Made by a program: the position numbers and the translations under genes
Shown here: positions 320 through 55,199 of the stretch, in pieces
Position numbering within the stretch: position 1 is the first letter of the stretch
Layout: the number at the start of each line of letters is the position of its first letter
Notes under the pieces: generated by a model
The model's input: the letters and a program-made list of their open reading frames with translations, nothing else
Told to the model about the DNA's origin: nothing
Databases searched by the model: none
From: Candidatus Zixiibacteriota bacterium
GTDB lineage: Bacteria > Zixibacteria > MSB-5A5 > GN15 > FEB-12
DNA length: 55,199 bases
Assembly: GCA_028715215.1 (NCBI GenBank)
Contig: JAQUSF010000008.1
Span: forward strand, 1-55,199
Direction: 5' to 3'

Positions 320-378
320 GCCCGGATGGGCTTTATTAAGAGTAAATGATTGGAAAATCTAAACTTTGGAGATTTAAA

Positions 379-37255: not shown

Positions 37256-39439
37256 TTACCGTTTTTCGACCAGGAATATCAGGCCGTCGGGATAGTTAAC
37301 ATGCAACGGAAGCCCATCCCGCAGTTCCAGCGACGTGGTTTTAATCACTTCGCGGTTTTCTTCGGGGCTTAAAATATTGGTCAATTTTATCCGAGCCGCC
37401 GTTAAACCCCGTTTTTTCAAGTCCGCCCTGATGATGATTTCCTTCCGACCGGGCTCGAAACCGTCGGAAAGTTCCCCTGGCGGTGGCACGACCACGAATA
37501 ACAAACTCTTTTTGTCACTGGCGTGATAGGAAATATCCACCGACGGGTCGCTGCAATAGAGGAACGATGAAATACCCTCGCCCTCGAGAATTGATTCGAT
37601 AAAGGCGAGTTTGTGATGGTTGCCGCCGGATGCCAGGTCAAAGGAGAACAGGTAAAAATTGCCTTTGTAACGGGAGGAACACACCCCCACCAGTTTGGTG
37701 CCGCAGTGAGCCAGTTTTTTGACCTTGCCGTCATCGGTAGTGCGGATAGACCCGTAAAGATAAGCCGGAAACGAACCCGTTTTATGCGTGATACTGCCAA
37801 TGTTGTAATCTACCGTGGTTTTAATGCGGAAGTGGTTGGCCAGGACCTGGCACTCTTTGAACTCCTCGTCGTAACGGGGCATAACCCCGCACAGAATCAG
37901 GTGCACGCCCGCCTTGCTCAATTCGACCAGGGCCTCCTGTTCGCGCACCGCCATAATTTCGGTGGTCGGAAGGAAAATTATTTTGTAATTTTTCATGCTT
38001 TCGAAGTCCCTGTTTTCCCTGATGCCGTAATGGAGTTTCAGCCGCATGAAGTCCCGGCACACGCCCGCCACCGACTCGTCCAGTAAGCGCCTGATGTATT
38101 CGAAGCCCTTTTTGGCCGAGGTATAGCGCAGCCAGTTATACAGCCGGTTGCCCATCACGGCGATTTCGGGATTGAAATCCATTTCCTCGAAACCGATGGT
38201 GGAGATGGTTTGATTAAAGCGTTTGGCCACTTCGTAGCCGTCGGATACCGTACCGTCGTTATGCAACGGAGCACCGTACCAGTGGTCCCGGTCCACGAAC
38301 ATATAGTGATTGAGACCCTTGTAACCCGAGGAAAGACCGGCGGCGAAATAGAAATGGCGATGATTATTTTGTATTGGTGACATCTCAACCTCGCGTTTGG
38401 GGTCAGACGCCGCCCTGCCGGAAGTAAACGAGGTGGCGAAGGCAAAACCATACTCTGCCTTTAAAAAACGGGCTTTGTTGACCAGGTCGAAATAACTGCC
38501 TTCGGGAAATACATTACTGCCCAGAAAGGGCGAACGGTCTTCCGGGACGAGGTTGAAGGCCGGCAATAAATCGTTGGGACGAAAATACAGAGAACGGAAA
38601 AACAGCGGCTCAACCGTGTAGGATTTGAAAATATCCTCGATTATTTCAAGATAAGCGTTTAACATGTATTCCCGGAATTTAAACCAGTCCACCACTTTGG
38701 GATACTGGTCAAGGGTCAACTCGGTAAATTTCCGGGGCGGTTCAACAGCAGTAAAATCATTGTTTTTTTCTTTATAGCGGCCGTTGAGCTTCTTGATGTC
38801 TTTATACAGATTTTCCAGAAACTGGGGATAATATTGACTGAGCACCTCGGGATTATAATCGGCTTTATCGGGTTCCAGAAGACGACCGAAAGAGGTCTCA
38901 TAATCCAGCTCGACCATGAACACCGGTCCCCGGGGATGGATATAATTCTTGGTGATATCAATAAAAGCCTTAAAATAATTTTTCAGGTGAAATTGAAAGT
39001 TGCGGTGCAGGTAGCTGGGTAAATAACCGCCTTCCACGTCACAGGTATTCGGCAGTTTTATTTCCATGCCGTTGGCGTCGCGGGCAAAGATTTTAATATC
39101 ACTGAAAAGAAATTTAGGCAGACCGCCGTAAGGGATTTCACCGGCCACCCAGGGTCCGGGGCGCAAAATTACCTTAAAACCGAATTCCCGGGCCAGCTCC
39201 AGAAAAACCACCAGGTCTTTTTTGGGGTCGGAAAAGCCACTGAAATCTATGTACTTACCGTTATCCTGATGGATATTCCAGGGGACGGAGGTGGATATTA
39301 TCCGGAAACCGGCGCGTTTAATACGTTCAAAACAAATTGACCAGTAGCGTTTATCAATTCTGAAATAATGAAGTTCCGCCACAAAGGGCTGATAAGTTTC
39401 TTTTCCAATAGAAAATCTATTGCCTATGACACCTAACAT
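37256..39439 (-). CDS. GH35-like glycoside hydrolase with altered active-site motifs
   Basis: The 727-residue protein has a GH35 beta-galactosidase N-terminal barrel: ELHYFRIDKRYW, KRAGFRIISTSVPWNIH, and ILRPGPWVAGEIPYGGLP (about 91-108). At the acid/base site the family's E-N-E-Y is E-L-D-Y here (residues 177-180), and where a nucleophile Glu is expected, F-A-T-S-F-T-S-G (334-341) has no Glu. It has no signal peptide and ends with a beta-sandwich region. It may be a divergent hydrolase using other residues or a sugar-binding relative. It heads a transcript with ggt, from a good promoter at 39497-39525. Confidence 0.7.
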   Translation of the reverse strand: MLGVIGNRFSIGKETYQPFVAELHYFRIDKRYWSICFERIKRAGFRIISTSVPWNIHQDNGKYIDFSGFSDPKKDLVVFLELAREFGFKVILRPGPWVAGEIPYGGLPKFLFSDIKIFARDANGMEIKLPNTCDVEGGYLPSYLHRNFQFHLKNYFKAFIDITKNYIHPRGPVFMVELDYETSFGRLLEPDKADYNPEVLSQYYPQFLENLYKDIKKLNGRYKEKNNDFTAVEPPRKFTELTLDQYPKVVDWFKFREYMLNAYLEIIEDIFKSYTVEPLFFRSLYFRPNDLLPAFNLVPEDRSPFLGSNVFPEGSYFDLVNKARFLKAEYGFAFATSFTSGRAASDPKREVEMSPIQNNHRHFYFAAGLSSGYKGLNHYMFVDRDHWYGAPLHNDGTVSDGYEVAKRFNQTISTIGFEEMDFNPEIAVMGNRLYNWLRYTSAKKGFEYIRRLLDESVAGVCRDFMRLKLHYGIRENRDFESMKNYKIIFLPTTEIMAVREQEALVELSKAGVHLILCGVMPRYDEEFKECQVLANHFRIKTTVDYNIGSITHKTGSFPAYLYGSIRTTDDGKVKKLAHCGTKLVGVCSSRYKGNFYLFSFDLASGGNHHKLAFIESILEGEGISSFLYCSDPSVDISYHASDKKSLLFVVVPPPGELSDGFEPGRKEIIIRADLKKRGLTAARIKLTNILSPEENREVIKTTSLELRDGLPLHVNYPDGLIFLVEKR

Positions 39440-39649: not shown

Positions 39650-40546
39650 TTACTTCAGAAGAATCATCTTCTTGGTATCAACAAAGTCTTTGGTTTCCAG
39701 CTTGTAGAAATAGATACCTGAGGCATACTGGCTGGCGTTCCATTCGATAGTCTGCCTGCCTCTTTCGCCATATTCTTTGAATTCTTCTACTTTCTGTCCC
39801 AGGACATTATAAATAGTCAGGGTATAATCAGTGTTCCTGGCCAGGTCGAAAAGAATGGTTGTCATCGGGTTAAAGGGATTGGGATAATTCTGCATCAGGG
39901 AATAGGAAACCGGTAAAACGCCCTCATTGCCCTGAACATCGGAAGGGTCTCTGACAATCAGGGGTGATACACCACCGGCTTGATTACCAAGAACCACTAT
40001 TGGAGCATAATCGCCATTAGTTGGGTCGGCAAATTTCAGGTTAACCCCAGAATACCAGATGAAAGTGTCCAGATAGATGTAATCGGAGCCGGTCCAGCTG
40101 TCAATGGTAAAGTAATAAGTAGCCAGCAGTTGCCGTGATTGTGAAATCGGGAGAAAAGCTGTACCAAAGACGTTTATACCGAAAAACATAAAACGATTAT
40201 CAATATTAGCTTGAGCATAGTTATTTGCATTAACTAAAATTACCGAACCAAAAGTTGCTAAAGCTGTAGCAGATCCCCTGGCGGAATCAATGGTAATATC
40301 TTTGGCACCGGAATAGGGACTGCCGGTTAAAGTATCCTGCCATGCGAAACCTGAAGAATGCCCCAGAACCGTGGTATTCGAATCAATCCAGTAATAGAGT
40401 TCGACTTTAAATGATGTATGGTCACCAGCGGCATCGGGACGTGAACATACTAAAATTAATGAATCGGGAGAACCTTTATCGATACCGAAAACAGGAACAG
40501 AGACAGCCAACAACAGGATAAAAACTAATAGTAATTTAACTTTCAT
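39650..40546 (-). CDS. Secreted protein with T9SS-type C-terminal sorting domain
   Basis: The 298-residue protein has a signal peptide (1-20) and a central beta-sandwich-like region (about 25-190), with LLATYYFTIDSWTGSDYIYLD resembling cohesin-like domains in its neighbours. A C-terminal Por/T9SS-type domain begins YSLMQNYPNPFNPMTTILFD, with LTIYNVLGQKVEEF and the final KKMILLK. Such domains send cargo through the type IX system or resemble FlgD-like Ig modules. ATG 40546 has GGAGGTAAGG upstream. It is a single gene with its own promoter (40696-40724) and terminator. It has no dockerin, unlike the neighbours. Confidence 0.82.
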   Translation of the reverse strand: MKVKLLLVFILLLAVSVPVFGIDKGSPDSLILVCSRPDAAGDHTSFKVELYYWIDSNTTVLGHSSGFAWQDTLTGSPYSGAKDITIDSARGSATALATFGSVILVNANNYAQANIDNRFMFFGINVFGTAFLPISQSRQLLATYYFTIDSWTGSDYIYLDTFIWYSGVNLKFADPTNGDYAPIVVLGNQAGGVSPLIVRDPSDVQGNEGVLPVSYSLMQNYPNPFNPMTTILFDLARNTDYTLTIYNVLGQKVEEFKEYGERGRQTIEWNASQYASGIYFYKLETKDFVDTKKMILLK

Positions 40547-40744: not shown

Positions 40745-40774
40745 AAAAAAAAGGCGGAAAATAAATCCGCCTTT
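40745..40774 (-). terminator. Terminator of the subtilase gene
   Basis: AAAGGCGGA and TCCGCCTTT with an AAATAAA-type loop, followed on the minus strand by a run of eight Ts. It lies 27 bases past the subtilase stop. Confidence 0.85.
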
Positions 40775-40800: not shown

Positions 40801-43164
40801 TTATTTGGCCGGCGGTTCTGCTCCGCCTAAGTACAAGTAGCTGATTAAAAAGGTTATATCGGAGATATCGTAGAGGCCATCGGCATTTACATCGCCGCCA
40901 TAAGCGTCAATAGGTGGTTCACCGATGGGTTCGATATACAGATGGCTTATCAGGGCGGTAATATCGGTGATACTCGGCTCTTCGCCGTTGCAGTCCACAT
41001 CGCCGCGGACACACGGCCGGACATAAACCTTACCGGTTTTGAATACCGGCCAGTAAGGACCGTAGATGGTGTTTAACACCGGGTATTTATATGTTCCCCA
41101 GGACAGGGTATCAATAGTCACCAGTGTTCCCGGTGCCGCCGTGCCCGGTACGGTTATATATAACTTTAAAAAAGTCCCGGTATCCGGCATCAGGTAGTTG
41201 GAATAGTTCTGCGGGCTTGACCCCAGGTAAACGGCATATCTTTTATTGGCAAAATCAAAACCGGGATACTCCCGGGTATGGAAATATTCGGTCCGGGTAC
41301 CCTGCATAGAGGCGGAATCGAGTTTTATGCCCTGGCTGTTGGGCAGGGTGATGGAGATGGTCATATTTTTAATCTGGGCGGTATTATTAAGATAAATCGG
41401 TACTACCGCCTGCTGGCCGCGGTTAACCATTACCGAATCAATAATCATGGTATCGGCCCGGGCCCAGATATAATGGCGCAGGCGTTCTTCGCCCAAGCCG
41501 TTGGGGTCGTTGACCTTCAGTGAAACATTGTAAATTCCCGGTTCGGTATAAATATGCGAGGGATTCTGAATAGCCGAGATTGCACCGTCGCCGAATGACC
41601 ATTCCCACGAGGTCGGGGAGTTGGGCGAAAGGTCAGTGAAATTAACTTCGAGGGGAATATCGCCTTCGGTAATATCGCTGGAAAACATGGCAATGGCCAG
41701 CACGGAGAGGGCTTTGTTGGCATTAATGCGGCCGGTTCCGAGAAGTCCGTAGTAAGCGGGATTAAGGGCGTAAATGTCATCGGTATTATTTCTGATAATG
41801 GCGTTTACTTCTTCCACCGAAAGCGAGGGCATGGCCGAACGAATCAGGGCTGCCAGTCCGGCCACCATCGGGGAAGCCATCGAGGTTCCGCCGATTGTGT
41901 TGGTGCCCGGGGTATAACTATAAGAATAAGTGGAGAGAATACTCGAGCCCGGGGCGCTGACATCAATCCAGGAACCGTAATTGCTATAGGAAGCCTTGAG
42001 GTCGGAAGACGTGGTGGCGGCAACCGAAAGAACTTCGTAGAAGTTGTCCATGGGTCCCGGAGTGGTGATATTATCATTTCCGGCGGCATGACAGACGGTT
42101 ACGCTGTGTCCGATGATGGCATTTTGCAGGGCGCTGTTTTGTACCGAGGAACTGCCCCAGCTGCAGTTGATGACATGAGCGCCGTTGTTGGCGGCATAGT
42201 TGATGGCGGTGGCGCAGTCATTGGAATTGACATAACCCCTGCCGTCGGAAGCCGTGGCGCCGACTCTGAGACACATGATCCGGGCGCCGCCAAAAGAACG
42301 GTACCCGCTCCAGCCCCCGGCGATACCGACAACGTCAGTGGCATTGTTGGTGACAGCGGCGGCTATCCCGCTGCAATGGGTGCCGTGACCATCAAAATCA
42401 TTCGGGTCGGAATCCGGCGTGCCGGCATCCTCGCCCGGCCAGACACTGCCGATACCGGTTAAGAAATCATAGCCGATTAAATCATCAACCACGCCGTTGG
42501 AATCATTATCCAGGCCGTCGAAATCGTCAAGGTCGTATACTTCACCGTCGCCATCGATATCCTCGCCCGGATTAACCCAGATATTGGCGGTCAGGTCGGG
42601 GTGGCGGTAATTCACTCCGGTATCGATGATGGCGATTTTTATCGAATCGGAACCGGTTTCCTTGTCCCAGGCGTCGGCCAATTGCAGTTTAGTGCGGTGC
42701 CACTGGGAGGTCCAGGAGGGGTCATCGGGGACCCGGTCAACCGGTATCGCCAGCACCGGTTCAGCCCAGCGGATATTGGGGTCCTGAAGAAGGCGGTTGA
42801 CTATTTTTTCGACACTTATCGTATCCGGAAATGATATCTCATAGTAGCGGGTCAAATCCTTTAACCCGGAATTAACCGGGGGCTTTTCCTTTTCCATGGG
42901 AAATATTTTCCTGAAACCGCTAATCTGTAATTCTTCGAAAGTTCTGTCGAGCCCGGCGTAACCCGGACTGACCCGTCCGAAATTCCTTTTCATACTGCTC
43001 AGGTCAAGGTCATCTTCAAATTGAACCGTGACTATGCCCTTGATTATGTATGGCTTAGGTGTCTCGAGATTTTCATATATCCGGCTGTATGCATCGGGGA
43101 CCATCAAAAAACAGAACAGTCCCGCAAGAATCAACGAAGCCGAATATTTGGTTGTTTTTGACAT
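40801..43164 (-). CDS. Secreted subtilisin-like (S8) protease with PKD, cohesin-like and dockerin modules
   Basis: The 787-residue protein has a signal peptide (about 1-27), an N-terminal propeptide-like region to about 145, and an S8 catalytic domain. The triad is D181 (IIDTG), H260 (GHGTH) and S428 (GGTSMASP), with oxyanion N363. A PKD domain follows (about 500-570, WEWSFGDG). Next comes a beta-sandwich with a cohesin-like pattern (about 575-715), then a dockerin-like pair: GDVDCNGEEPSITDITALIS and GDVNADGLYDISDITFLIS. It should act at or outside the outer membrane. One polypeptide carries both an apparent receptor-type and a ligand-type module. The second dockerin repeat here is the most canonical in the window. 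It is a single gene with its own terminator. Confidence 0.9.
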   Translation of the reverse strand: MSKTTKYSASLILAGLFCFLMVPDAYSRIYENLETPKPYIIKGIVTVQFEDDLDLSSMKRNFGRVSPGYAGLDRTFEELQISGFRKIFPMEKEKPPVNSGLKDLTRYYEISFPDTISVEKIVNRLLQDPNIRWAEPVLAIPVDRVPDDPSWTSQWHRTKLQLADAWDKETGSDSIKIAIIDTGVNYRHPDLTANIWVNPGEDIDGDGEVYDLDDFDGLDNDSNGVVDDLIGYDFLTGIGSVWPGEDAGTPDSDPNDFDGHGTHCSGIAAAVTNNATDVVGIAGGWSGYRSFGGARIMCLRVGATASDGRGYVNSNDCATAINYAANNGAHVINCSWGSSSVQNSALQNAIIGHSVTVCHAAGNDNITTPGPMDNFYEVLSVAATTSSDLKASYSNYGSWIDVSAPGSSILSTYSYSYTPGTNTIGGTSMASPMVAGLAALIRSAMPSLSVEEVNAIIRNNTDDIYALNPAYYGLLGTGRINANKALSVLAIAMFSSDITEGDIPLEVNFTDLSPNSPTSWEWSFGDGAISAIQNPSHIYTEPGIYNVSLKVNDPNGLGEERLRHYIWARADTMIIDSVMVNRGQQAVVPIYLNNTAQIKNMTISITLPNSQGIKLDSASMQGTRTEYFHTREYPGFDFANKRYAVYLGSSPQNYSNYLMPDTGTFLKLYITVPGTAAPGTLVTIDTLSWGTYKYPVLNTIYGPYWPVFKTGKVYVRPCVRGDVDCNGEEPSITDITALISHLYIEPIGEPPIDAYGGDVNADGLYDISDITFLISYLYLGGAEPPAK

Positions 43165-43401
43165 GTTTACTCTCCGGCAAATCCCATTTTAAAAAGTCAT
43201 TCCTAATATATTAACGTCACTAAAGGCATATCCTTTTAGTAATTATCTTATTTAACCGCCCCAAATATGATAAAGTTTACTTTTTTTTAATAAATCCCGT
43301 GCTAAGAGATTCTGATTAGATGGGGAAGTCCGAATCAGACGGGTACAAATCCACTCAACTTCTTACACTACAAATATATATAAAAAATAAAAAAAAACAA
43401 G

Positions 43402-43434
43402 AAAAAAGGCTGTCTCGTTGTGAGACAGCCTTTT
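43402..43434 (-). terminator. Terminator of surface paralogue 1
   Basis: AAAAGGCTGTCTC and the matching GAGACAGCCTTTT enclose a short loop. It lies 22 bases past the stop at 43456. Confidence 0.88.
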
Positions 43435-43455
43435 AATATCGCAAAAATTACGTTA

Positions 43456-46400
43456 TCACGGGCAGGGTTTGAGAGCGCGGTGGTCAAGATACAGGTGGGC
43501 AATCAGATAGGTGATGTCGGAAATATCGACATCGTTAACCGTCGGATTGCTGCCGCCCGAATTGTCAACATCGGCTTCCGCCACGCAGCAAAGGTCTGCG
43601 CCCTGAAGATACAGGAACGAAATCAAACGGGTAATATCCGAAATATCCGGGTCTTCCGATTCCGAGCAATCAGCATTGCCCGTCATGCCGATACAGCAAC
43701 CCAGGAATTTCTTCTTGATGTCCCAGATATTGTCTTCGAGCCAGGCTTTGGCTGCGTCAATCTGGTTCACCAGCGCCTGTACATCCTTATCGAATGTCGG
43801 CGGGATAGTGGCCATTACTGTCCAGATGATAAGCGTATCGGTAGCGCCCAGGCTGTAATTATTGAAATACGTCAACACGGTGTGCTGGTCTTTGATGACC
43901 GACGAAGGCTGGGCGTTAAGGCCCGAGTTGGTACGCATGTTCCGATACAGTTCGAGAGGCACAAAACCACTCGCCGGATACACGTAAGTCTCGTTGAGAG
44001 CCGCGTAACCACCGAAGATCGGGTCGGTGTGCATCACGGAGCTGTCGGCGTTCCACTCGGTCTGAGTATAATAACCGATCCGCACCGCCCCGCCCATACG
44101 GGTATCGTTATCGGTGCATTCCAGAGAATCGCCACGGGCTTCATTGAACTCGCCGCCGATCTGGTAAATCAGGTCGTTGACCGGATCGGTTGCGGATTTG
44201 TTATAAGAACCGGAATCCGCAGGAATATCCCAGTCAAAAGCTTCACCGATTACCAGGCCGCCGTGAGCGGTGCCGTCATACGAGAAGATACGCATCATTT
44301 GAATCACGTACTGGGCGTTGGTACCGGTCGGGGCATAGTAGGTTTTCTCCACCGCTAAGGTTGAGTCCACCGTTATAAAGCTTCCGCTATGGTAGCAATC
44401 ATAGTTAACTCCCGAAGTATAATGCGTTGGGTTGGTAAGTTTCACACCGCCGGGTGTCTCACCGATAACCGGTTTGAACCCATTCTCGGAGGCAAAGCCG
44501 TCGCCGAATATCGACCAGCTGGCCGTTACGTTGGTGTCACTGCCGGCAATAGCAGCCGTCAGAATCACCGGCGAAGCGTCGCCAAGGTAAACCGAAGCGT
44601 CTCCGGGAATAGTATCCGCGCCGGAGGAATCCAAACTGCTTGCATTGTCACATTCAAGAATGGTGTTGTAATAATCTAGGTTCTGAAAACCAATGTAATT
44701 GTTACCCATATTACCGTTGCTGCCTACCGCCAGGCTCACGATACCGGTTGAGACCTCACCCCATACAACACCGACCACCGTGTCGGCTACCGGGAAGTCC
44801 ACCAGGAACGATACGGTCGAGTGGTCCGGGTCGTCCGAATCGAAGAACACTTCACCGGACAGCTCTACAATCGTACCGGGGTTATTAATAGCGCCACCCT
44901 TGTTGAGGGTCACCACCACGGTATCCCAGTTGTTCGGCGCCAGGTTGGTGATGGTCATCGAGGTTTTGCCCAGACCAATCCAGTCGGTAGTCGTATAGGT
45001 ATATTTAGAATAGCGGATCGTATTGACATGCAGAATGTCGTTACCGGCGTTTTCAACCGGTACCTTAAGGTCATAATATTCGCCATGCTGGGTATAGAAG
45101 GGGTAGGTTACATCTTCCATTTGCACCCTTATAATCGGTTTGATAACCGGGTTCACACATGGCAGACGGAACCATTTGTGCGGGTTGGAGGTGTATGTTT
45201 CCGGATAACCCCGGCCTGAGTTATCAGGCGCGGCTGACGGCGAATGGTCATCGACATAAAAGACATCGATATATTCGGTATTGGTGTGGGTTCCCGGATT
45301 CACCGTGAAGGCATCCGAGGCACTCGACCAGTCCAGACCCGTCCAGTCACTGACATCCATACCCATCCGAGAAATGGAAGGCATGTTTTCCGCATGGCAG
45401 CTGTCAAGACCGCAGTCCGGCGTCTTGGTATTGGTTATATTGCGAGCCGCATCCCATGACAGACCTGAGAGGTCCGTCGATACCGACATATGGAGGTCGC
45501 CGTTGTAACCGATGGCAAAGACACTGTAACCGGCATCGTAATCGGCACAGTCGGTCGAATCGCCGTTATCCGGGTCGCCGTACTGAACCCAGACGGCATA
45601 AAGTTTGTCGGCACATTCGGAGAGCTCGAAACGAGCCAGGTTCTGAACGTTGATACCGCCCACGCCGCAACAGCGCAGGGGATTAAATTCCGCATTCTGA
45701 ACCGAGCTGATTATACCGGTCCCGCTTGACCAGTGGAACAGACGGCAACGACGGCTGTTATTATAAACGGCCGCCGAATCCGGCATCGTTTGCACCGGGA
45801 AATAACGGTTGGCGTTGAACAGAATGTGAATCTCGTCGTCGCTGGTAATCAAAACGTGCGATTCAATCCAGGCCCGGTAACCCGGTTCGTTACCCTTGCT
45901 GACATAACCGGTGATGTTTTGAATTGAACTCCAGTTATTACCCATGTCATTGGAAACCCGGTAATAAACGTCGGAACCGGCATTGTTAACTGTATCCAGA
46001 AGGAAAGCCACGAAAGAAACCGCTACCTTGCCGGATACCCGCGAGGCCGAAATATCCCAGGAATCCCACCAGAATTCGTCGTCTTCCGCCAGGGGTGTCA
46101 TAGTCCAGCTCTGGGTGCTTGCCGCTCCTCCGGGTTTCTTCCAGAATTCCAGAAACGAAGTTTCATAAATGCCGGCATCGTCATAAACACCCTCATAACA
46201 GAGCAGATATATAGCCGTGTCCGTGCCGTAAATATGGTGTTCTATACGGGGATAGGATACGCCGAAGGTGTCGGCCGCCAGGCTCATGTTGACCGGTATG
46301 GACTGGAAATTGCCATAAATTGCCGGGGCCGTGGCGTCCCAGCCATACTGGGCGGGCACATAGTCGGTGAAGGAACCGTCGTTGGAAACAATCCCGGCCA

Positions 46401-46920
46401 CCATAGCTCCACCATTAGCCGGTTCGACGTCGAGCGATACATAGGTTCCCTGCTTGGGCACGGTTTGAAGAGCAATACCGACGTTGGCTGTAAGGGGCCA
46501 GGTTCCACTAATCGGATCATAAAGGTTATAGGCGTGGAAACGCGGGCAGGCAGCCGGATCACCGCCGCACAACTGGTAGGTGTAAGCCATGTGAATCTGC
46601 GGATCAGGAGCCCGCCAGTCAATCATACGCGGCGCCGAGACATGATACTGTTTATCACGATAGCTGGTGCCGACTATCTCTCCCGGGGCATCGGTCAGAC
46701 CCGAATAGCCCAGAGAAGCCGGGGGTATCTGCTTGGAGGTCGTTGAAGCGCCGTATTCGCTTTCAGGCTGGGTTGCGGCTTGCCTCTGGGTTTGAAAACC
46801 ATACTGGGCAATACGGTCAACGCGCTTGTCATGCATACGAATCTTCGCCTCTGCAACCACTGCCAGCGATGTGAAAATAAACAAGGTGAGGATCAATAAA
46901 GTTAAAAGCTTCTTCGTCAT
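43456..46920 (-). CDS. Giant secreted propeller-dockerin protein, paralogue 1
   Basis: The 1154-residue protein has a signal peptide (about 1-25) and an N-terminal motif DKRVDRIAQYGFQ. A probable beta-propeller (about 100-590) contains the Asp-box SNDMGNNW (323-330) and the Asp-box-like STDLSGLSW (481-489). An Ig-like region follows (about 600-715), then an unnamed module beginning SNGNMGN (734-740) and running to about 1040. A helical linker and a Cys-rich dockerin (1074-1154) close it, with GCCIGMTGNADC, DISDITRLISFLY, LCCVAEADVD and DISDITYLIAHLY. No catalytic site is evident. AAAGGAGC lies eight bases before the start. It has its own terminator and a long upstream leader. Likely a cell-surface binding or structural protein. 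Confidence 0.8.
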   Translation of the reverse strand: MTKKLLTLLILTLFIFTSLAVVAEAKIRMHDKRVDRIAQYGFQTQRQAATQPESEYGASTTSKQIPPASLGYSGLTDAPGEIVGTSYRDKQYHVSAPRMIDWRAPDPQIHMAYTYQLCGGDPAACPRFHAYNLYDPISGTWPLTANVGIALQTVPKQGTYVSLDVEPANGGAMVAGIVSNDGSFTDYVPAQYGWDATAPAIYGNFQSIPVNMSLAADTFGVSYPRIEHHIYGTDTAIYLLCYEGVYDDAGIYETSFLEFWKKPGGAASTQSWTMTPLAEDDEFWWDSWDISASRVSGKVAVSFVAFLLDTVNNAGSDVYYRVSNDMGNNWSSIQNITGYVSKGNEPGYRAWIESHVLITSDDEIHILFNANRYFPVQTMPDSAAVYNNSRRCRLFHWSSGTGIISSVQNAEFNPLRCCGVGGINVQNLARFELSECADKLYAVWVQYGDPDNGDSTDCADYDAGYSVFAIGYNGDLHMSVSTDLSGLSWDAARNITNTKTPDCGLDSCHAENMPSISRMGMDVSDWTGLDWSSASDAFTVNPGTHTNTEYIDVFYVDDHSPSAAPDNSGRGYPETYTSNPHKWFRLPCVNPVIKPIIRVQMEDVTYPFYTQHGEYYDLKVPVENAGNDILHVNTIRYSKYTYTTTDWIGLGKTSMTITNLAPNNWDTVVVTLNKGGAINNPGTIVELSGEVFFDSDDPDHSTVSFLVDFPVADTVVGVVWGEVSTGIVSLAVGSNGNMGNNYIGFQNLDYYNTILECDNASSLDSSGADTIPGDASVYLGDASPVILTAAIAGSDTNVTASWSIFGDGFASENGFKPVIGETPGGVKLTNPTHYTSGVNYDCYHSGSFITVDSTLAVEKTYYAPTGTNAQYVIQMMRIFSYDGTAHGGLVIGEAFDWDIPADSGSYNKSATDPVNDLIYQIGGEFNEARGDSLECTDNDTRMGGAVRIGYYTQTEWNADSSVMHTDPIFGGYAALNETYVYPASGFVPLELYRNMRTNSGLNAQPSSVIKDQHTVLTYFNNYSLGATDTLIIWTVMATIPPTFDKDVQALVNQIDAAKAWLEDNIWDIKKKFLGCCIGMTGNADCSESEDPDISDITRLISFLYLQGADLCCVAEADVDNSGGSNPTVNDVDISDITYLIAHLYLDHRALKPCP

Positions 46921-47302
46921 TCTTCGCTCCTTTCGAGCTGAGAAGTGTTTTAAGGATTAATGAAATTTTTAAATTACATTAACTTAAAATTTAAACGGGT
47001 TTGCCACCCGTTAAACTGACTCTTTACTCTCCTTACCACCTCCTTTCACCACTTTGGTCTCTATCCATAAAACATCTAATGATGCTAATCAGGAGACATA
47101 TATTTGGGTATTATTTAAAAAAAAATTATAGGTACACGTTGCATTTCATCTTCCTGTGACAGGTTTCACCGGGGAAAAAGTTATATCCAATGGTATAAAA
47201 CCGGAAGGTCCTGTCGTGAGGATTTATAGCAAGTAAATGCAATAAATTAGCTTACCTCTCATAAACCATTAGTAATATAATAAAATTTTGAAAAATTCAA
47301 AG
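46921..47302. other. Upstream region of surface paralogue 1
   Basis: No gene. On the minus strand it would hold the promoter and leader of paralogue 1. Visible parts are the 46993-47049 leader elements; beyond them the DNA is AT-rich and I see no clear promoter. Confidence 0.5.
46993..47049 (-). promoter_or_regulatory. Leader hairpin and orphan Shine-Dalgarno-like motif, paralogue 1
   Basis: Reading the minus strand, GTGAAAGGAGGTGG (47049-47036) lies about 120 nt ahead of the start and has no start codon behind it. AACGGGTGGCAAACCCGTT (about 47012-46994) then forms a hairpin. A similar AGGAGGTG motif stands about 130 nt ahead of paralogue 2, and about 90 nt ahead of the gene at 40546. Confidence 0.4.
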
Positions 47303-47342
47303 AAAAAAAAGCCACCCCGGAATTTTTTTGGGGTGGCTTTTT
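47303..47342 (-). terminator. Terminator of surface paralogue 2
   Basis: GCCACCCC (47311-47318) pairs with GGGGTGGC (47330-47337), with an A-run on the left that is read as eight Ts on the minus strand. It is 19 bases past the stop at 47361. Confidence 0.88.
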
Positions 47343-47360
47343 ATCGCAAAAATTACGTTA

Positions 47361-50300
47361 TCACGGGCAGGGTTTCAGGGCGCGGTGGTCAAGATACAGG
47401 TGCGCAATCAGATAGGTAATGTCGGAGATATCGACATCGTTTACCGTCGGACTGCTGCCACCCGAATTGTCAACATCGGCTTCCGCCACGCAGCAAAGGT
47501 CTGCGCCCTGAAGATACAGGAACGAAATCAAACGGGTAATATCCGAAATATCCGGGTCTTCCGATTCCGAACAATCGGCGTTGCCCGTCATGCCGATACA
47601 GCACCCCTGGAATCTCTTCTTGATATCCCAGATGTTGTCTTCCAGCCAGGCTTTCGCGGCTGTAACCTGGGCTGCAAGGGAGGATACATCTTTGAACACG
47701 TCAGGCGGTACAGTTGCCATGACAACCCAGATAATCAGGGTATCATTTGCTCCAAGGTTATAGTTATCGAAGAACGTCAGAACCGCATGCTGGTCGTCGA
47801 TGGAGGAGGAGGGTTGGGCATTTAAACCCGTGTTGTTCTTCATGTTACGATAGAGTTCCAATGGCACGAAACCACCGGTGGGATAGACATAGTCCTCGTT
47901 AAATTCCGTATAACCGCCATAAATGGGATCCGTATGTATAACGGAACTGTCCGCATTCCATTCAGCCTGAGTATAATAACCAAGGCGCGCCGAACCACCG
48001 TAACGGGTATCGTTATTGGTACATTCCAGAGCGTCACCATTAGGTTCATTGTACTCGCCGCCGACCATATAAATCATATCCGTCAGCGGTTCGGTACCGG
48101 CTGAGTTATTGGAACCGGTATCGGAGGGAATATCCCAGTCATAAGCTTCGCCAATTACCAGGCCATTGTGCGCCGCACCATCATATGAGAAGATTCGCAT
48201 CATCGCAATAATGTACGAAACATTGGCGGTTGGGGCATAATATGTCTTCTCAACGACAACGGTGGAGTCCATAGTGATAAAGGAGCCGGTGTGGAAGCAG
48301 TCGTAGGCTACCCCGGTAGTTGGTGTATAATGGGTCGGGTTGGTCAATTTCACCCCGCCGGGAGTTTCACCGGTAACCGGTTTAAAGCCGTTTTCATAGC
48401 TGAAATACTGGCTGAAAATAGCCCAGCTGGCGGTCACGTTGGTATCCGAACCGACGATTTGAGCGGATAAAATAACCGGAGAAGCATCGCCGAGATAGGT
48501 TTTAGCATCGCCGGGAATGGTATCCTGGCCGCCACTGCTCAGGTTGGACGAATCGTCGCATTCCAGTTCGGTGCCGTAGAAGTCCATATTCACGGAACCG
48601 ATGTAGTTACCCATGTTTCCGTTGCTGGATACGGTCAGGCTGATGTAATTGGTGGCAATGGTATCCCAGATAGTGCTGACGATGGTATCCGCGACCCAGA
48701 AATCAATGGGCAGGAAGGCGGTATCGATACCCACCTGGCGCTGCCAGATGAACCCGACCTCACCGGTCAGACGAACCACGGTGCCGGGATTATTGATGGC
48801 GCCGCCTTTGTTAAGGGTTACAACCAGGGTATCGAGGTTATTGGGAGCCCCGGTACCAACGGTCATTGAAGTCGGGGCCAGTCCAATCCAGTCAGCGGTA
48901 GGCTGGGTGGTTTTAGTGGCATAAATGCCGGTAATGATCAGGTCGGCGTTACCGGCGTTTTCAACCTGAATGTCAATGTTTCTGGAATGTCCGTGAGAAG
49001 CAAAACTCGGATAAACGATTTCACGCGGTGACAGGTTTATCCTGGCTTCGATAACCGGGTCCACGCAAGGCAGGCGGAACCACTTTATCGGGTTGTAAGT
49101 ATAGGGTGTTTCTTCGTCGGGAATGGAATAGCCCGGGAGAAGGTCCGCTACATACTCAACATCAAGATAATGCGAGCCGGTGTAAGGCGGTTGCGAAGAC
49201 GGGTCAACGGTAAGAGCCGCCGAAGCATTCGACCAGTCAAGGGTACCGTAGTCGTCATTATCCATGCCGTAGCGAGACATCGACGCCCAGAGTTCGTTGT
49301 CGCACTCGTTGCCGGCGGTGGTATCACATCCCGGGGTTTTGGTATTCGTCAGGTTACGGGCGGCATCCCAGAGCAAGCCGTCCAGTTCGGTAGAGACCGA
49401 CAAATAAAGGTCAGCGTTGGCATTGCTGCCGACACCCACGACATTGGAGTTGGCACAGTCGGTGGAATCGCCGTTTTCCGGGTCACCGAACTGCGACCAG
49501 ATGACATACATACGGCCATTACATTCGGAAATATTGAATTTCGCCACGTTCATAACGTTTTCACTGGCCACGCCGCAGTTAAGAGAGGAGTTCCATTCGG
49601 CATTATGAACGGTACTTATAACCCCGGTTTGGTTGGACCAGTGGAACAGACGGCAGCTGCGGCTGCCGGAGCTGGCGCCGTCATAAATACCGCCGTTCCA
49701 GATAATGTGCAGGTAGTCCTCGGAATCATAAACGCAGCTGACTTCCAACCAGGCCCGGTGACCGACAACGCCGGTGACATAATTGGTGATATTATGCCTG
49801 TTGGCTGGATTCCAGGTCGCCCCCATATCAGTTGATTCCCAATACCAGACGTCGTTGCTGCCTTCGCCTTCACCGGTCACGGACTGAGCCCACACGCAGG
49901 ACACTTTACGTGACACTCTTGAAGCCGTGACATCCTGCATCATGAAAAAGACGTAAGGATCAATGACATGAGCTTCCCAGGTACCGGAAGTAGCGATACC
50001 CACTTTTCTGAACAGGATAATGGCGCCGCCTTCCCAGTACTCATAGGAGAAGCAGTAAGTAACGGTATCGAGGCCGTTGACGTGGTATGTAAGTTTCGGG
50101 GCGCCTAATTCGCCGTTATGGTGGGAACCGGGCTGGCTGACGGCATCAGGAACATAATTACCAGCACCAAAACCGCAATAAAGTGTCGGGGCGGTTTCGT
50201 CCCACCAGGTATGAGTGCGGTTAGGCTGACCGGCGGCATACTGGCCAAAAGCCGTCACCACAGCACCACCGCCAGGCATAACATCAAGGTTGACAAAACG

Positions 50301-50780
50301 ATAAAGGTTTTCACCCAGACCGGAAACGGGACAGCCCACACCTGCCGACAATGGCCAGGTGCCGGTTATGGGGTCATAGACGTTATAAGCCGCCGCCCGA
50401 GGACCGACATCATACTGCTTGGTCATCAGGAAAGTCCAGGCAAAGTGAATCTGCGGATTCGGATCCCGCCAGTCCACCAGACGACCCATGGTTGAGTTCT
50501 GCTGGTAAGCCTGGTAGCTATAACCAACGTCTACACCGGGGGAGTTAGTGACATTAACCCCGAGCGACCGCGACGGCGGATCGCTTTTTCCAGGTTGCAG
50601 ATAACCATGGTCAGGGACATTGGCGTCAACCATTTTTGCTTTCTTATCAAAGATAAACCCGTAGTGAGAGAGTTTTTCACTGCGGACATCTTTAATTCTG
50701 GATTTCGCACTGGCGGCAACGGCCATAATGGAGATGAGGAAAATAATAATGATAAATAAAGAGATGAGTTTCTTTACCAT
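47361..50780 (-). CDS. Giant secreted propeller-dockerin protein, paralogue 2
   Basis: About 1139 residues from ATG 50780 (MVKKLISLFI), which has AAAGGAGC eight bases upstream; the open frame extends to 50867, but that part has no signal-peptide character. The domain order equals paralogue 1: signal peptide, motif DVRSEKLSHYGF, a propeller region with Asp-boxes STDMGATW and STELDGLLW, Ig-like region, SNGNMGN module, helical linker, Cys-rich dockerin. The last 200 bp of coding DNA are almost the same as in paralogue 1, with 110 bp identical (47461-47570 versus 43556-43665), far closer than the middle of the genes. It has its own leader and terminator. Function unknown; a surface role is likely. 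Confidence 0.8.
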   Translation of the reverse strand: MVKKLISLFIIIIFLISIMAVAASAKSRIKDVRSEKLSHYGFIFDKKAKMVDANVPDHGYLQPGKSDPPSRSLGVNVTNSPGVDVGYSYQAYQQNSTMGRLVDWRDPNPQIHFAWTFLMTKQYDVGPRAAAYNVYDPITGTWPLSAGVGCPVSGLGENLYRFVNLDVMPGGGAVVTAFGQYAAGQPNRTHTWWDETAPTLYCGFGAGNYVPDAVSQPGSHHNGELGAPKLTYHVNGLDTVTYCFSYEYWEGGAIILFRKVGIATSGTWEAHVIDPYVFFMMQDVTASRVSRKVSCVWAQSVTGEGEGSNDVWYWESTDMGATWNPANRHNITNYVTGVVGHRAWLEVSCVYDSEDYLHIIWNGGIYDGASSGSRSCRLFHWSNQTGVISTVHNAEWNSSLNCGVASENVMNVAKFNISECNGRMYVIWSQFGDPENGDSTDCANSNVVGVGSNANADLYLSVSTELDGLLWDAARNLTNTKTPGCDTTAGNECDNELWASMSRYGMDNDDYGTLDWSNASAALTVDPSSQPPYTGSHYLDVEYVADLLPGYSIPDEETPYTYNPIKWFRLPCVDPVIEARINLSPREIVYPSFASHGHSRNIDIQVENAGNADLIITGIYATKTTQPTADWIGLAPTSMTVGTGAPNNLDTLVVTLNKGGAINNPGTVVRLTGEVGFIWQRQVGIDTAFLPIDFWVADTIVSTIWDTIATNYISLTVSSNGNMGNYIGSVNMDFYGTELECDDSSNLSSGGQDTIPGDAKTYLGDASPVILSAQIVGSDTNVTASWAIFSQYFSYENGFKPVTGETPGGVKLTNPTHYTPTTGVAYDCFHTGSFITMDSTVVVEKTYYAPTANVSYIIAMMRIFSYDGAAHNGLVIGEAYDWDIPSDTGSNNSAGTEPLTDMIYMVGGEYNEPNGDALECTNNDTRYGGSARLGYYTQAEWNADSSVIHTDPIYGGYTEFNEDYVYPTGGFVPLELYRNMKNNTGLNAQPSSSIDDQHAVLTFFDNYNLGANDTLIIWVVMATVPPDVFKDVSSLAAQVTAAKAWLEDNIWDIKKRFQGCCIGMTGNADCSESEDPDISDITRLISFLYLQGADLCCVAEADVDNSGGSSPTVNDVDISDITYLIAHLYLDHRALKPCP

Positions 50781-51153
50781 TCTTTGCTCCTTTCGAGCTT
50801 GCGATTTTCTCGCTTTTTTACCCAACAAATCCTTTTTTAAAAAATTGACAGGTTGATCAAAGGTCAACCGTCGTTTCTAATAAACCTTGTTACTCTTTCT
50901 CTAAAGATCACCTCCCTTCAAAATTTCTTTAATGTTATGTACATTAAATCGGTAAAGTACTGTTTACTTGCCACCTTTTAGTTTTGTTCAAAGTAAATTG
51001 GACTTATCTTTAGTTGAAGGTTTCGGATAAGTATTCAAATTACAAAGGACATTGTTACCAAACGGTATACAACACTTAACAGACAGTAAATTTTTTGCAA
51101 GTCCTACATTTCCCACCTGAAAAAATATAATAAAAAATATTGTTTTTCAAAGT
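50781..51153. other. Upstream region of paralogue 2 and spacer
   Basis: Note that 50781-50867 is open in the frame of paralogue 2 but is judged non-coding. No gene lies here. The part up to about 50930 is the leader with an orphan GGGAGGTGATC motif; the rest toward the next terminator is AT-rich without other recognisable sites. Confidence 0.5.
50906..50920 (-). promoter_or_regulatory. Orphan Shine-Dalgarno-like motif in the leader of paralogue 2
   Basis: On the minus strand TGAAGGGAGGTGATC matches almost the full 16S rRNA anti-Shine-Dalgarno complement, yet no start codon follows at the usual distance. The gene starts about 130 nt downstream at 50780 with its own ribosome binding site. Confidence 0.45.
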
Positions 51154-51193
51154 AAAAAAACAGCCCTTCCGGAAAAAAACCGGAAGGGCTAAC
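51154..51193 (-). terminator. Terminator of surface paralogue 3
   Basis: AGCCCTTCCGG (51162-51172) pairs with CCGGAAGGGCT (51180-51190), then a T-run on the minus strand. It lies 20 bases past the stop at 51213. Confidence 0.88.
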
Positions 51194-51212
51194 CTGTAAT
51201 AATCTTTGCCAC

Positions 51213-54200
51213 TTAAGGACAGTCAGGCAGGATTCGATGGTCAATATACAGGTGAGCAATCAAATAGGTGATGTCCGAGATATCGGGAGCGCCGCCGGAA
51301 CCATCAACATCAGCCTCCTCGAGACAGCACAATTCCTTGTGCGACAGGTACAAATGGTCGATAAGGCGGGTGATATCCGAGATATCAGGATCGCCGCCGG
51401 AACAGTCAATATCGCCGGTGACGCCGATGCAACAGCCGGCAAACTCTTTTTTCAGGTTATTAATATTTGCCACCAGCCAGTTTTTGCCGTTTTTCAATTC
51501 GTTGACCAGACTTCCCGAACCCTCACCTGCGGCAAACTGCACGGTCGCCATTACTGTCCAGATAATCAGGGTATCGGAGGCGGACAGGTTATAGTTATTG
51601 AAATAGGTCAAAACAATATGCTGGTCCACCTGAACGGAAGACGGCTGGGCGTTTAAGCCGGGGTTGTTCATCATGTTACGATAGAGTTCCAGGGGTACAA
51701 AACCTCCTGCCGGGTAAACATAATCCTCGTTGATTTCAGCATATCCCCCCCAGATGGGCTCGGTATGGGCAATGATGGGATTGGCATTGAATTCGGCCTG
51801 GGAATAATAACCAATTCGAATTGCCCCGCCGAACCGCTCGTCATTGTCCTGGCACTCCAGTGAGTCGCCATGAGGCTCATCCCATTCTCCACCCCGGATA
51901 AAGATAAGGTCATTGACCGGGTCACTGCCGGTACTGTTATATGAACCGGAGTCGGAGGGAATATCCCAGTCGAATGCTTCCCCGATCACCAGCCCGGTAT
52001 GAGGGTTACCGTCAAAAGAGAATAAACGCAACATCTGGACAATATAGGCGGCATCAAGCGACCGGGCATAATAGGTTTTTTCCACTACCAACGATGAGTC
52101 AGTCGTAACAAAAGAGCCGGTATGAAAAGCCTCATATTTGAGTACTGCGTCCTCGTAATGGGTTGGTCGGCTTAATCTTACACCCCCTGGAGTGAAGCCG
52201 GTAACCGGTTTGAAACCATTGGGTTCATTAAGATTTTCTTTAAAAATAGCCCAGCTGGCGGTAACAATGGTATCACTTTCGCTGAAGTCAGCGGTCAAAA
52301 TGACCGGCGAGGCGTTACCCAGATAGACTGAGGCGTCGCCGGGGATGGTGTCCGGCAAAATATTATCACATTCAAAAATTTTATTATAAAAATCCATATT
52401 TACCCGCCCGGCATTGCTGTTGCCCATATTACCGTTGCTGGAAACAACCAGGCTTATCCAGCGGGTGGATATCGTGTCCCGGATAATCCCCACTACCGTA
52501 TCGGCGACATAAAAATCGATCGGCAGATAAACGGTATCAAGCAGAGTCTGCCGGTGCCATTCAAAAAAGACCTGGCCTTTGAGGTTTACCACCGTTCCGG
52601 GACTGTTTATAACACCGCCGTTATTGAGAGTCACCGTCACCGTATCGACATTATTGCTGCCGGCCGGCACCAAAAGAGAAGTGGTATTTACAGTGAGCCA
52701 GTTGAGAGCCGGCAGGGTGGTTTTAATAACACCGATTTTTGAGATATTAAGGTCCGCATTGCCGTTATTTTCAATCCGGATATAATAAAAAGCGGGGGTA
52801 CCATGAGAAGTATATTCCGGGTAAACAATCTGGTCGGGTGTCAAGGCGATTTTTGCTTCGATGACAGGTTCTACACAGGGCAGGCGGAACCATTTAAGGG
52901 GAACATTAGCCGCCGGAGTGGCATCGGCGCCGGTCGAGGCTCCCGGGACCAGGTCGTTGACATACATGATATCCAGATAATAAGTGCCGGTATAAGGGCT
53001 GTCGGGCTGTCGGGAGGGGTCAACGGACAGAGCCTGGGGTACGGCACTCCAATCAAGGCCGGTAAAATCTGTGTTGTTCATACCATAACGTGACATCGAG
53101 GGCCAGTTTTCATTATCACATTCATTGCCGGAAGTATTGTCACAGCCGGGGGTCTTGGTATTGGTCAGGTTGCGGGCTTCATCCCATTTGTCACCGTTAA
53201 GGTCGGTCGAGACCGAGAGGTAAATTTCAGCGTTGGCGCTAAAACCGGCGTTGACGAATTCGGGGTCGGCGCAGTCAGTCGTATCACCGTTTTCAGGGTC
53301 GCCGAATTGGATCCAGGTTGTGTACAGTTTTCCGTTGCACTCGGAGATGGTGAATTTAGCCAGGTTATGAACATTGGCGCCGCCGACACCACAGTTTAAA
53401 AGGGGATCCCATTCGGCGTTTTTCACGGTGCTGATAATATCAGTATGGTCAGCCCAGTGGAAAAGGCGGCAACGCCGGGTCTGGGTATCGGTGCGGTCGC
53501 CGTCATAGACATTGGCATTCCACAGGACATGGAGATGGTCCTGGGTATCATAAAGACAGGAAACCTCCATCCAGGCGCGGTATCCGGGAAGGTCCGGGTC
53601 GTAATTGGTAATATTGTGCTTGTTAGCTGGGTTCCAGGTAAGACCCATATCATCGGATACCCAGTACCAGACATCACTCTGGCCGAGAATACCCTCAGCG
53701 GCGTCCTCCAGCCAGACCAGGGCTACCCTTGACGATACCCGGGAAGCGGTTATATCCTGACACATCCACCAGCAATCTTCGATAAAAGTGGCAGTCCAGC
53801 CGGCGGAGCCACCGACCGAGTTACCTTCCCTGCGAAAAAGAACCAGGGCATGCTGGTCGCCAGTGGCGAATTCGCAGCAAAAAGCATAGACAACCGTATC
53901 ACTCCCCCGGATATGATATTCGAGTTTTGGGAAAATAACATCGGTGCCGCTTTCAAGAGCGTGAACATTGTTAAGCGAGTCACTAATCCGGCTGCCGTTA
54001 CCGAAACCGCAATATATGCCGACCGGAGCGGTGGCATCCCAGTAAACCGTCGTCCGTGTCGGAGCGGAGGCGTTATCACTCAGACGAATATGTCCGGTAA
54101 TCACCGCGGCTCCAGAGGGGTCGGCGTCGGTATTGGCAAAACCTCCCCGGGCATTCGTAAGGGGGGAAACGGCACATCCGATATCAGCTGTCAGCGGCCA

Positions 54201-54602
54201 GGAACCCGTTATCGGGTCAAAGACGTTGTAAGATAGCGTTCGCGGGCCGGCGGAACTCCCGAACATCTGCGTATACGCCATGTGAATCTGCGGTTTGGGT
54301 GCCCGCCAGTCTATCAAACGACCCATGGTCGAGTTCTGTTGATACTCATACCAGGTATGGGCAATCAGTTCACCCGGCGCGTTACCATCCGCCGTAGCAC
54401 CGAGGGATTGACGAACCTCTCCTTTGGAGATGACCGTTTCATTTCCGGATATGGCCCGGGCTTTTTTGATAACCTGGAAACCATAGTGAGACAGTTTCTC
54501 GGAACGAACATCTTTTATGCGGGTCCTGGTAACCCCGGATACAGCTAATAACAGCATTAAAGACAAAGTTAATAGCAACGTTGATATAATTTTCTTTGAC
54601 AT
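51213..54602 (-). CDS. Giant secreted propeller-dockerin protein, paralogue 3
   Basis: About 1129 residues from ATG 54602 (MSKKIISTLL); a GTG two codons upstream (54608) is the alternative. It shows a signal peptide, the DVRSEKLSHYGF motif, the WRAPKPQIHMAY block, a propeller region with Asp-boxes SDDMGLTW and STDLNGDKW, Ig-like region, SNGNMGN module and dockerin. The dockerin differs from those of paralogues 1, 2 and 4: GDIDCSGGDPDISDITRLID, then LSHKELCCLEEADVDGSGG and DISDITYLIAHLY, closer in its LIDHLYLSH core to the one at 4083-5519. The leader lacks the orphan AGGAGGTG motif of paralogues 1 and 2. No catalytic site is evident. Confidence 0.8.
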   Translation of the reverse strand: MSKKIISTLLLTLSLMLLLAVSGVTRTRIKDVRSEKLSHYGFQVIKKARAISGNETVISKGEVRQSLGATADGNAPGELIAHTWYEYQQNSTMGRLIDWRAPKPQIHMAYTQMFGSSAGPRTLSYNVFDPITGSWPLTADIGCAVSPLTNARGGFANTDADPSGAAVITGHIRLSDNASAPTRTTVYWDATAPVGIYCGFGNGSRISDSLNNVHALESGTDVIFPKLEYHIRGSDTVVYAFCCEFATGDQHALVLFRREGNSVGGSAGWTATFIEDCWWMCQDITASRVSSRVALVWLEDAAEGILGQSDVWYWVSDDMGLTWNPANKHNITNYDPDLPGYRAWMEVSCLYDTQDHLHVLWNANVYDGDRTDTQTRRCRLFHWADHTDIISTVKNAEWDPLLNCGVGGANVHNLAKFTISECNGKLYTTWIQFGDPENGDTTDCADPEFVNAGFSANAEIYLSVSTDLNGDKWDEARNLTNTKTPGCDNTSGNECDNENWPSMSRYGMNNTDFTGLDWSAVPQALSVDPSRQPDSPYTGTYYLDIMYVNDLVPGASTGADATPAANVPLKWFRLPCVEPVIEAKIALTPDQIVYPEYTSHGTPAFYYIRIENNGNADLNISKIGVIKTTLPALNWLTVNTTSLLVPAGSNNVDTVTVTLNNGGVINSPGTVVNLKGQVFFEWHRQTLLDTVYLPIDFYVADTVVGIIRDTISTRWISLVVSSNGNMGNSNAGRVNMDFYNKIFECDNILPDTIPGDASVYLGNASPVILTADFSESDTIVTASWAIFKENLNEPNGFKPVTGFTPGGVRLSRPTHYEDAVLKYEAFHTGSFVTTDSSLVVEKTYYARSLDAAYIVQMLRLFSFDGNPHTGLVIGEAFDWDIPSDSGSYNSTGSDPVNDLIFIRGGEWDEPHGDSLECQDNDERFGGAIRIGYYSQAEFNANPIIAHTEPIWGGYAEINEDYVYPAGGFVPLELYRNMMNNPGLNAQPSSVQVDQHIVLTYFNNYNLSASDTLIIWTVMATVQFAAGEGSGSLVNELKNGKNWLVANINNLKKEFAGCCIGVTGDIDCSGGDPDISDITRLIDHLYLSHKELCCLEEADVDGSGGAPDISDITYLIAHLYIDHRILPDCP

Positions 54603-54954
54603 ATCCACCTTTCCAGGAATTATTTTACTTCCTGTAAGAAAACATCCTTGTAAAAGTTATCGGTTTATACTTCAATAAGTTGAAAGTAAAAAATTACTTC
54701 TATTCATAAAGGGCATCTTTTCCGCTGAGTTTTATAGTTACCTTCAGTAACAGGTAAACGTCTCAATTCGAGAAAATGATGGACTTCCTGCTGGTTCATT
54801 GCCATGTGAACTTTATTCCTGCAAATTTAAGAAACAGATTTTCTATTACAAAACATTAAGCTGGAAATTCCATCATTAAGTAATCAGGTAAGTAAAAAGG
54901 TTATTTCAATTTTTATCAGTAGTAAATATAACTAAGAAAGGCGGGAAATAAAAG
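54603..54954. other. Upstream region of paralogue 3
   Basis: About 350 bp of AT-rich DNA without a gene. The promoter of paralogue 3 should be here on the minus strand, but I see no clear consensus site and no orphan GGAGG motif. Confidence 0.5.
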
Positions 54955-54989
54955 AAAAAAGGCCACTCTCATACGGGAGAGTGGCCTTT
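54955..54989 (-). terminator. Terminator of surface paralogue 4
   Basis: GGCCACTCTC (54961-54970) pairs with GAGAGTGGCC (54977-54986), flanked by an A-run and TTT. It lies 20 bases past the stop at 55009. Confidence 0.88.
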
Positions 54990-55008
54990 ATCGTGATTTA
55001 ACTTACTA

Positions 55009-55199
55009 TCACGGGCAGGGTTTGAGGTCGCGATGGTCAAGATACAGGTGCGCAATCAGATAGGTGATGTCAGAAATATCGACATCGTTTACCGTCGGAC
55101 TGCTGCCGCCCGAATTGTCAACATCGGCTTCCGCAATACAGCAAAGTTCGGCACCCTGCAGATACAGGAACGAAATCAAACGGGTAATATCCGAAATAT
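55009..55199 (-). CDS. Surface paralogue 4, dockerin end only (cut by the window edge)
   Basis: The frame is open from the window edge to the TGA at 55009 and gives the last ~63 residues of a dockerin: ISDITRLISFLYLQGAEL, then CCIAEADVDNSGGSSPTVND, VDISDITYLIAHLYLDH and the ending KPCP. DNA and protein closely match the ends of paralogues 1 and 2. The rest of the gene lies beyond the window; by analogy it should extend more than 3 kb further to the right, but that cannot be seen. Confidence 0.85.
   Translation of the reverse strand, partial: ISDITRLISFLYLQGAELCCIAEADVDNSGGSSPTVNDVDISDITYLIAHLYLDHRDLKPCP

Follow-up and report, generated by a model that had tools for sequence, protein, structure and literature searches.

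The window is a 55,199-nt stretch of DNA that makes up the whole of one contig (C14) of a 3.2-Mb Zixiibacteriota MAG, which is 94% complete and fragmented. Its minus strand carries, from right to left, a partial gene, three genes for proteins of 1131-1168 residues, a subtilase gene and a gene for a 298-residue protein (Table 1). Rechecking of the reading frames bore out the gene layout and coordinates that the first-pass annotation had given for the dockerin array. It had also assigned a terminator to each gene, and a terminator-like hairpin was found 3' of every array gene; that after P0003 was read from the sequence and the other five come from a hairpin scan. The C-terminal dockerin pairs are likewise present, in the subtilase, the three large proteins, the partial gene and the distant gene at 4083-5519. 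The gene for the 298-residue protein was absent from that account. P0003 probably starts about 30 codons downstream of the first codon of its ORF. Beside the locus lies a GH35/GH42-like glycoside hydrolase gene without a dockerin (37256-39439, minus strand), adjoined by a gamma-glutamyltranspeptidase gene (35534-37231), and the contig starts with an AIPR-family (abortive infection phage resistance) protein (346-1560, plus strand).

Table 1. Genes, domains and hairpins of the window
Feature	Coordinates	Strand	Basis
P0005: two type C sandwich repeats, CC-type dockerin (4188-4412) and 34-residue tail	4083-5519	-	Repeat family, dockerin profile
Terminator-like hairpin after P0006	39595-39622	-	Hairpin scan
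P0006, 298 residues, anchored-receptor candidate: signal peptide, type B cohesin-like domain, T9SS type A sorting domain	39650-40546	-	TIGR04183, PF18962
Type B cohesin-like domain of P0006, divergent	39989-40471	-	Profile searches, hhalign
Terminator-like hairpin after subtilase	40750-40774	-	Hairpin scan
Subtilase P0001, 787 residues: S8, PKD, type A cohesin, Cys-poor dockerin	40801-43164	-	Pfam scan
Subtilase dockerin, distinct class (GGDVN linker, no Cys pairs)	40807-41013	-	PF00404 (20.0 bits), tree
Type A cohesin domain of subtilase	41026-41457	-	Type A family profile
Terminator-like hairpin after P0002	43404-43434	-	Hairpin scan
P0002, large secreted propeller-like protein 1; CC-type dockerin 43459-43701	43456-46920	-	ORF, dockerin profile
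Terminator-like hairpin after P0003	about 47301-47343	-	Read from sequence
P0003, large secreted propeller-like protein 2; CC-type dockerin 47364-47606	47361-50867	-	ORF, dockerin profile
Terminator-like hairpin after P0004	51161-51191	-	Hairpin scan
P0004, large secreted propeller-like protein 3; CC-type dockerin 51216-51437	51213-54608	-	ORF, dockerin profile
Terminator-like hairpin after partial gene	54958-54989	-	Hairpin scan
Fourth gene, partial (contig end): CC-type dockerin only	55009-55197	-	Dockerin profile

The three large proteins share 49-56% identity with one another and have three further paralogues on other contigs. A Pfam scan and a PDB search revealed no family and no structural relative for them. 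We call them propeller-like on the judgement of the first-pass annotation and on an Asp-box-like motif (SxDxGxxW) seen in their sequences. P0002 and P0003 are 54% identical overall, whereas a single residue in 81 differs within the dockerin. The 81 dockerin codons show 11 synonymous differences and one non-synonymous difference, as against 28 and 23, respectively, for the 80 codons upstream. The dockerin ends are strongly constrained, under purifying selection. In addition, their lower synonymous divergence suggests some sequence homogenisation. The 3' ends of the paralogues (43459-43701, 47364-47606 and 55012-55197, together with those of L050 and L049) are 91-98% identical at the DNA level, unlike the whole proteins, which are about 47-75% identical. 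Such a homogenised dockerin-coding end is a likely cause of contig breaks. The partial gene is 98.4% identical, within the coding sequence, to a copy on contig C130. We rejected an assembly overlap between the two, because identity stops at the stop codon and the downstream flank differs.

As the first-pass annotation had proposed, further carriers were sought with a genome-wide profile search, which found 82 dockerin matches. There are 76 reading frames with a dockerin; in 65 of them it ends no more than 8 residues from the stop codon, and 59 were counted with a CC linker. Far from being a local oddity, the array belongs to a genome-wide set of about 65 proteins with a dockerin tag. The bulk dockerins follow the pattern CC-x-G ... 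GN-x-DC ... DISDIT ... LY ... LCC-x2-EADVD ... DISDIT ... LY ... CP and are nearly uniform within the genome, far more so than the rest of the proteins. Pfam does not detect these CC-type dockerins, yet they are homologous to PF00404 (A1 profile), and their closest match in the PDB is a clostridial dockerin chain (E=0.027). As the Pfam dockerin model misses nearly all dockerins of the genome, annotation pipelines would largely be blind to the system.

The sandwich region of the subtilase had been described as cohesin-like, and the resemblance is real. The profile of its family (type A; profile A2) retrieves solved cohesins first from the PDB, namely 4uyp (E=1.9e-8), followed by 5nrm, 3ul4, 1g1k and 2vn5. 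Type A relatives exceed the cut-off of the Pfam family PF00963. When the dockerin-fused type A members were used alone, they reached a PF00963-positive protein (E=3.9e-16), and their sole PDB match was the cohesin 2xdh (E=0.11). P0001 by itself has no PF00963 match at E<=1; its membership follows by transitivity, since its type A relatives match both PF00963 and PDB cohesins. The family has 22 matches in the genome. The dockerin of the subtilase scores 20.0 bits against PF00404, for a cut-off of 22.9.

The neighbouring P0006 carries a C-terminal sorting domain (CTD) of the type IX secretion system (T9SS), which scores above the cut-offs of both TIGR04183 (52.9 bits) and PF18962 (48.5 bits). 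A gene for the T9SS translocon protein SprA is also present in the genome. On these two grounds, P0006 is a predicted type A cargo of type IX secretion. Its type B domain has no PDB relative in a profile search, and neither has the type C repeat of P0005. With shallow profiles, types B and C gave no signal at all against type A; deeper profiles resolved B but not C. A lax iterative search had pooled type B with type A, which we regarded as drift before performing strict searches and profile-profile comparisons. In the latter, the type B profile (37 members) aligned with the type A profile (45 members) at 95.9% hhalign probability (E=6.4e-9), which places the type B domain of P0006 in the cohesin superfamily. 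A Foldseek search listed no cohesin for the AlphaFold model of type B, a model too poor for use (pLDDT 44).

The case of P0005 is different. Two cohesin-like repeats and a dockerin had been assigned to it; the dockerin is there, and the two repeats do form a family, but as cohesins they are only candidates, with weak profile-profile scores of 15% probability against type A and 34% against type B. Foldseek detected no cohesin with the AlphaFold model of the first repeat either, which was also too poor for use (pLDDT 54). In one relative (G029), a protein made of a type C domain and a CTD fills the second slot of the subtilase gene pair described below. This is a weak hint of an equivalent role for type C. 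The more direct anchor candidate is P0006, which combines a cohesin-like domain with a T9SS CTD, rather than the 4083-5519 protein.

Among the type A and B cohesin-like proteins of the genome, 23 of 24 end either in a dockerin (15) or in a T9SS CTD (8, P0006 and seven others), and the eight CTD proteins have no terminal dockerin. All 25 complete type B proteins of relatives follow the same rule, with 19 CTDs and six dockerins. Small anchor candidates also occur outside the window (L205:1208-2038, L090:5081-5956 and L194:1779-3182); these proteins of 277-468 residues are composed of a signal peptide, one or two type A cohesin-like domains and a T9SS CTD. In one further protein (L087:3764-7027), a plain dockerin and a T9SS CTD share the chain with a weak cohesin-like stretch. 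We did not find a long multi-cohesin scaffoldin in this 94% complete, fragmented genome, where no detected protein has more than two cohesin-like domains, and dockerins outnumber the detected cohesin-like domains (about 30). These architectures bear on the idea that the dockerins are intramolecular caps, which would only stabilise the chain end with up to three disulfides, any cohesin of the same chain binding them in cis. The cohesin immediately precedes the dockerin in 11 proteins (alignment A3), and the conservation of six cysteines hints at a rigid tail. Nevertheless, a cohesin is absent from the chain of most dockerin proteins, and the eight CTD-anchored cohesin-like proteins lack a terminal dockerin. 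We therefore hold this explanation to be improbable.

To define the cargo, the domains of 55 dockerin carriers were scanned, out of the about 65 C-terminal dockerins of the genome. Peptidase domains were detected in 20 of the 55 (five S8, five C10, three C25, two C1, two M14, and M28, M1 and M4). Other domains are FG-GAP, SBBP, Sortilin/BNR, LVIVD, TSP_3, CotH and amidase. Glycoside hydrolases were found in none of the 55, in line with the first-pass remark that glycanases were not obvious. With so many peptidases among the cargo, the assembly looks degradative (proteolytic) and not merely structural. Apart from one to three exceptions, the dockerin-tagged proteins have no T9SS CTD. These peptidase families are found with a T9SS CTD as well (about 7 of 20 scanned), so that the dockerin and the CTD seem to be alternative fittings of the C-terminus. 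As peptidases are found on both sets, we do not claim that they are enriched on dockerin over CTD proteins.

This exchange of fittings raises another possibility, that the export machinery or a dedicated receptor recognises the CC-type dockerin as a tag for sorting or retention, the cohesin-like domains being ordinary structural sandwiches. A tag would fit the exactly C-terminal position of most dockerins, in the place that the CTD takes in the same peptidase families, and their uniformity relative to the remaining protein. Three observations make it unlikely. The cohesin-like domains are true cohesin homologues, they disappear from the phylum together with the dockerins, and the subtilase next to a cohesin-like CTD protein has a dockerin class of its own.

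The second of these observations comes from 132 genomes of the phylum. Both cohesin-like domains and dockerins were found in 125 of them and neither in six (G006, G007 and G119-G122), while an incomplete genome (G085) has dockerins only; the two are thus jointly present or absent in 131 genomes. The association is significant (Fisher p=1e-9), but this test contains few independent events since no more than two families account for the six genomes without either domain, and chains that bear both domains couple the counts. Those six genomes encode 43-302 T9SS CTD candidates (131-302 in five of them), as if display systems had been swapped. The CC-like dockerin profile and types B and C are largely restricted to the family of the window.

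The third rests on gene order and on a tree. A subtilase gene with cohesin and dockerin followed on the same strand by a gene for a cohesin-like CTD protein is found in the window and in six relatives (G036, which is of the same genus, and G039, G049, G012, G062 and G063), which span its own genus and four others, with spacings of 185-290 bp within the pair. Subtilase dockerins of six genomes from five genera have a GGDVNG-type linker in common and are devoid of Cys pairs. In the tree they group as a single clade (support 92/92, just under the starred threshold) apart from the bulk dockerins of the same genomes, which suggests two specificities. The dockerins of two of eight subtilases (G062 and G063) are nevertheless of the bulk type, which speaks against two classes as a universal rule.

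The conservation of the pair also weighs on the view that these modules are diversified protein-protein glue with no single function, in which domain shuffling would have created many unrelated pairings. The very heterogeneous cargo would fit this view, as would the unequal divergence of the three families that are cohesin-like or candidates. However, the gene pair is kept across genera and the bulk dockerins are nearly uniform in the genome and under purifying selection, and we give this view little credence.

Taken together, homology of the domains, their architectures, synteny, co-occurrence and the separate dockerin clade point to a T9SS-anchored, cellulosome-like cohesin-dockerin system for surface attachment that carries proteases, which we consider moderately probable. 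The first-pass suggestion that an FCB-type diderm builds a surface assembly with no glycanases is thus supported, with the addition that it would be more than structural. In this system, secreted proteins without a T9SS tag, i.e. peptidases of the S8, C10, C25, C1, M14, M28, M1 and M4 families and large repeat or propeller-like proteins, bear the C-terminal dockerin. Cohesin-like domains would be exported and anchored by T9SS as parts of CTD proteins such as P0006, and others reside on proteases with a dockerin of their own, such as the subtilase. The anchored cohesins would hold the dockerin proteins non-covalently at the cell surface. The subtilase is a probable adaptor: by analogy, the data suggest that its separate-class dockerin reaches the anchored neighbour P0006 and that its cohesin holds a bulk dockerin. 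Binding, partner choice, location and the passage of dockerin proteins across the outer membrane are the predicted parts of this scheme. A more elaborate version, which we offer tentatively, is a two-tier T9SS-anchored proteolytic machine specific to a family of Zixibacteria. In it, the disulfide-clamped bulk dockerins of proteases and propeller-like proteins would dock onto protease cohesins and the protease class of dockerins onto the CTD-anchored cohesin encoded next door, digestion and display being shared by two tag systems.

If the proposed system is real, an uncultured diderm phylum uses small anchored cohesins to assemble complexes for proteolysis at its surface, and its Cys-rich cohesin-dockerin pairs might serve protein engineering. 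It would also raise the question of how cargo without a CTD reaches the surface of T9SS bacteria. A literature search with the spelling Zixibacteria yielded no paper pairing this name with dockerins or type IX secretion.

Cohesins and dockerins outside cellulosomes are widespread, and their proposed functions are mostly guesses. The clostridial cellulosome has two tiers of type I and type II cohesin-dockerin pairs, an adaptor that combines a cohesin with a different dockerin, and a cohesin-bearing surface anchor. The system described here resembles it by analogy in its two dockerin classes, candidate adaptor and cohesin-bearing anchor candidate. In contrast, clostridial cellulosomes have Gram-positive anchoring, a multi-cohesin scaffoldin and glycanases with CBM, whereas here we find peptidases, a diderm and T9SS; two marks of a cellulosome were not detected, namely dockerin-bearing glycanases among the 55 carriers scanned and a multi-cohesin scaffoldin in the 94% complete genome. 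Relative to T9SS type A cargo in general (TIGR04183/PF18962), the CTD is common to P0006 and the seven other cohesin-like proteins and rare on dockerin proteins. The closest parallel is the cellulosome-like complex proposed for Candidatus Stygibacter (Cloacimonadota), also a diderm, with dockerin-bearing S8 and C25 peptidases and a T9SS-type CTD that anchors a cohesin protein (PMC8542988). Stygibacter has a single scaffoldin of 3,755 residues, in which cohesins occur in tandem and CBMs are present, and it also possesses glycoside hydrolases (PMC8542988). Here, in contrast, no such scaffoldin was found, the anchor candidates include small CTD proteins with one or two cohesins, the about 65 dockerins are Cys-rich, and cohesins are also present on proteases. 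The planctosome, a peptide-degrading cohesin-dockerin surface complex proposed in freshwater Planctomycetes (Nemodlikiaceae), shares peptide degradation, M14 peptidases and an adaptor with dockerin and cohesin; its anchor is a lamin-tail protein rather than a T9SS CTD, few of its components have been described, and the passages that describe it mention no conserved gene pair (PMC6461901). As the Stygibacter and planctosome systems have already been proposed, the principle is not new. The conserved two-gene unit, the two dockerin classes, the candidate T9SS anchor and the joint presence or absence of the modules provide precise, testable pairs.
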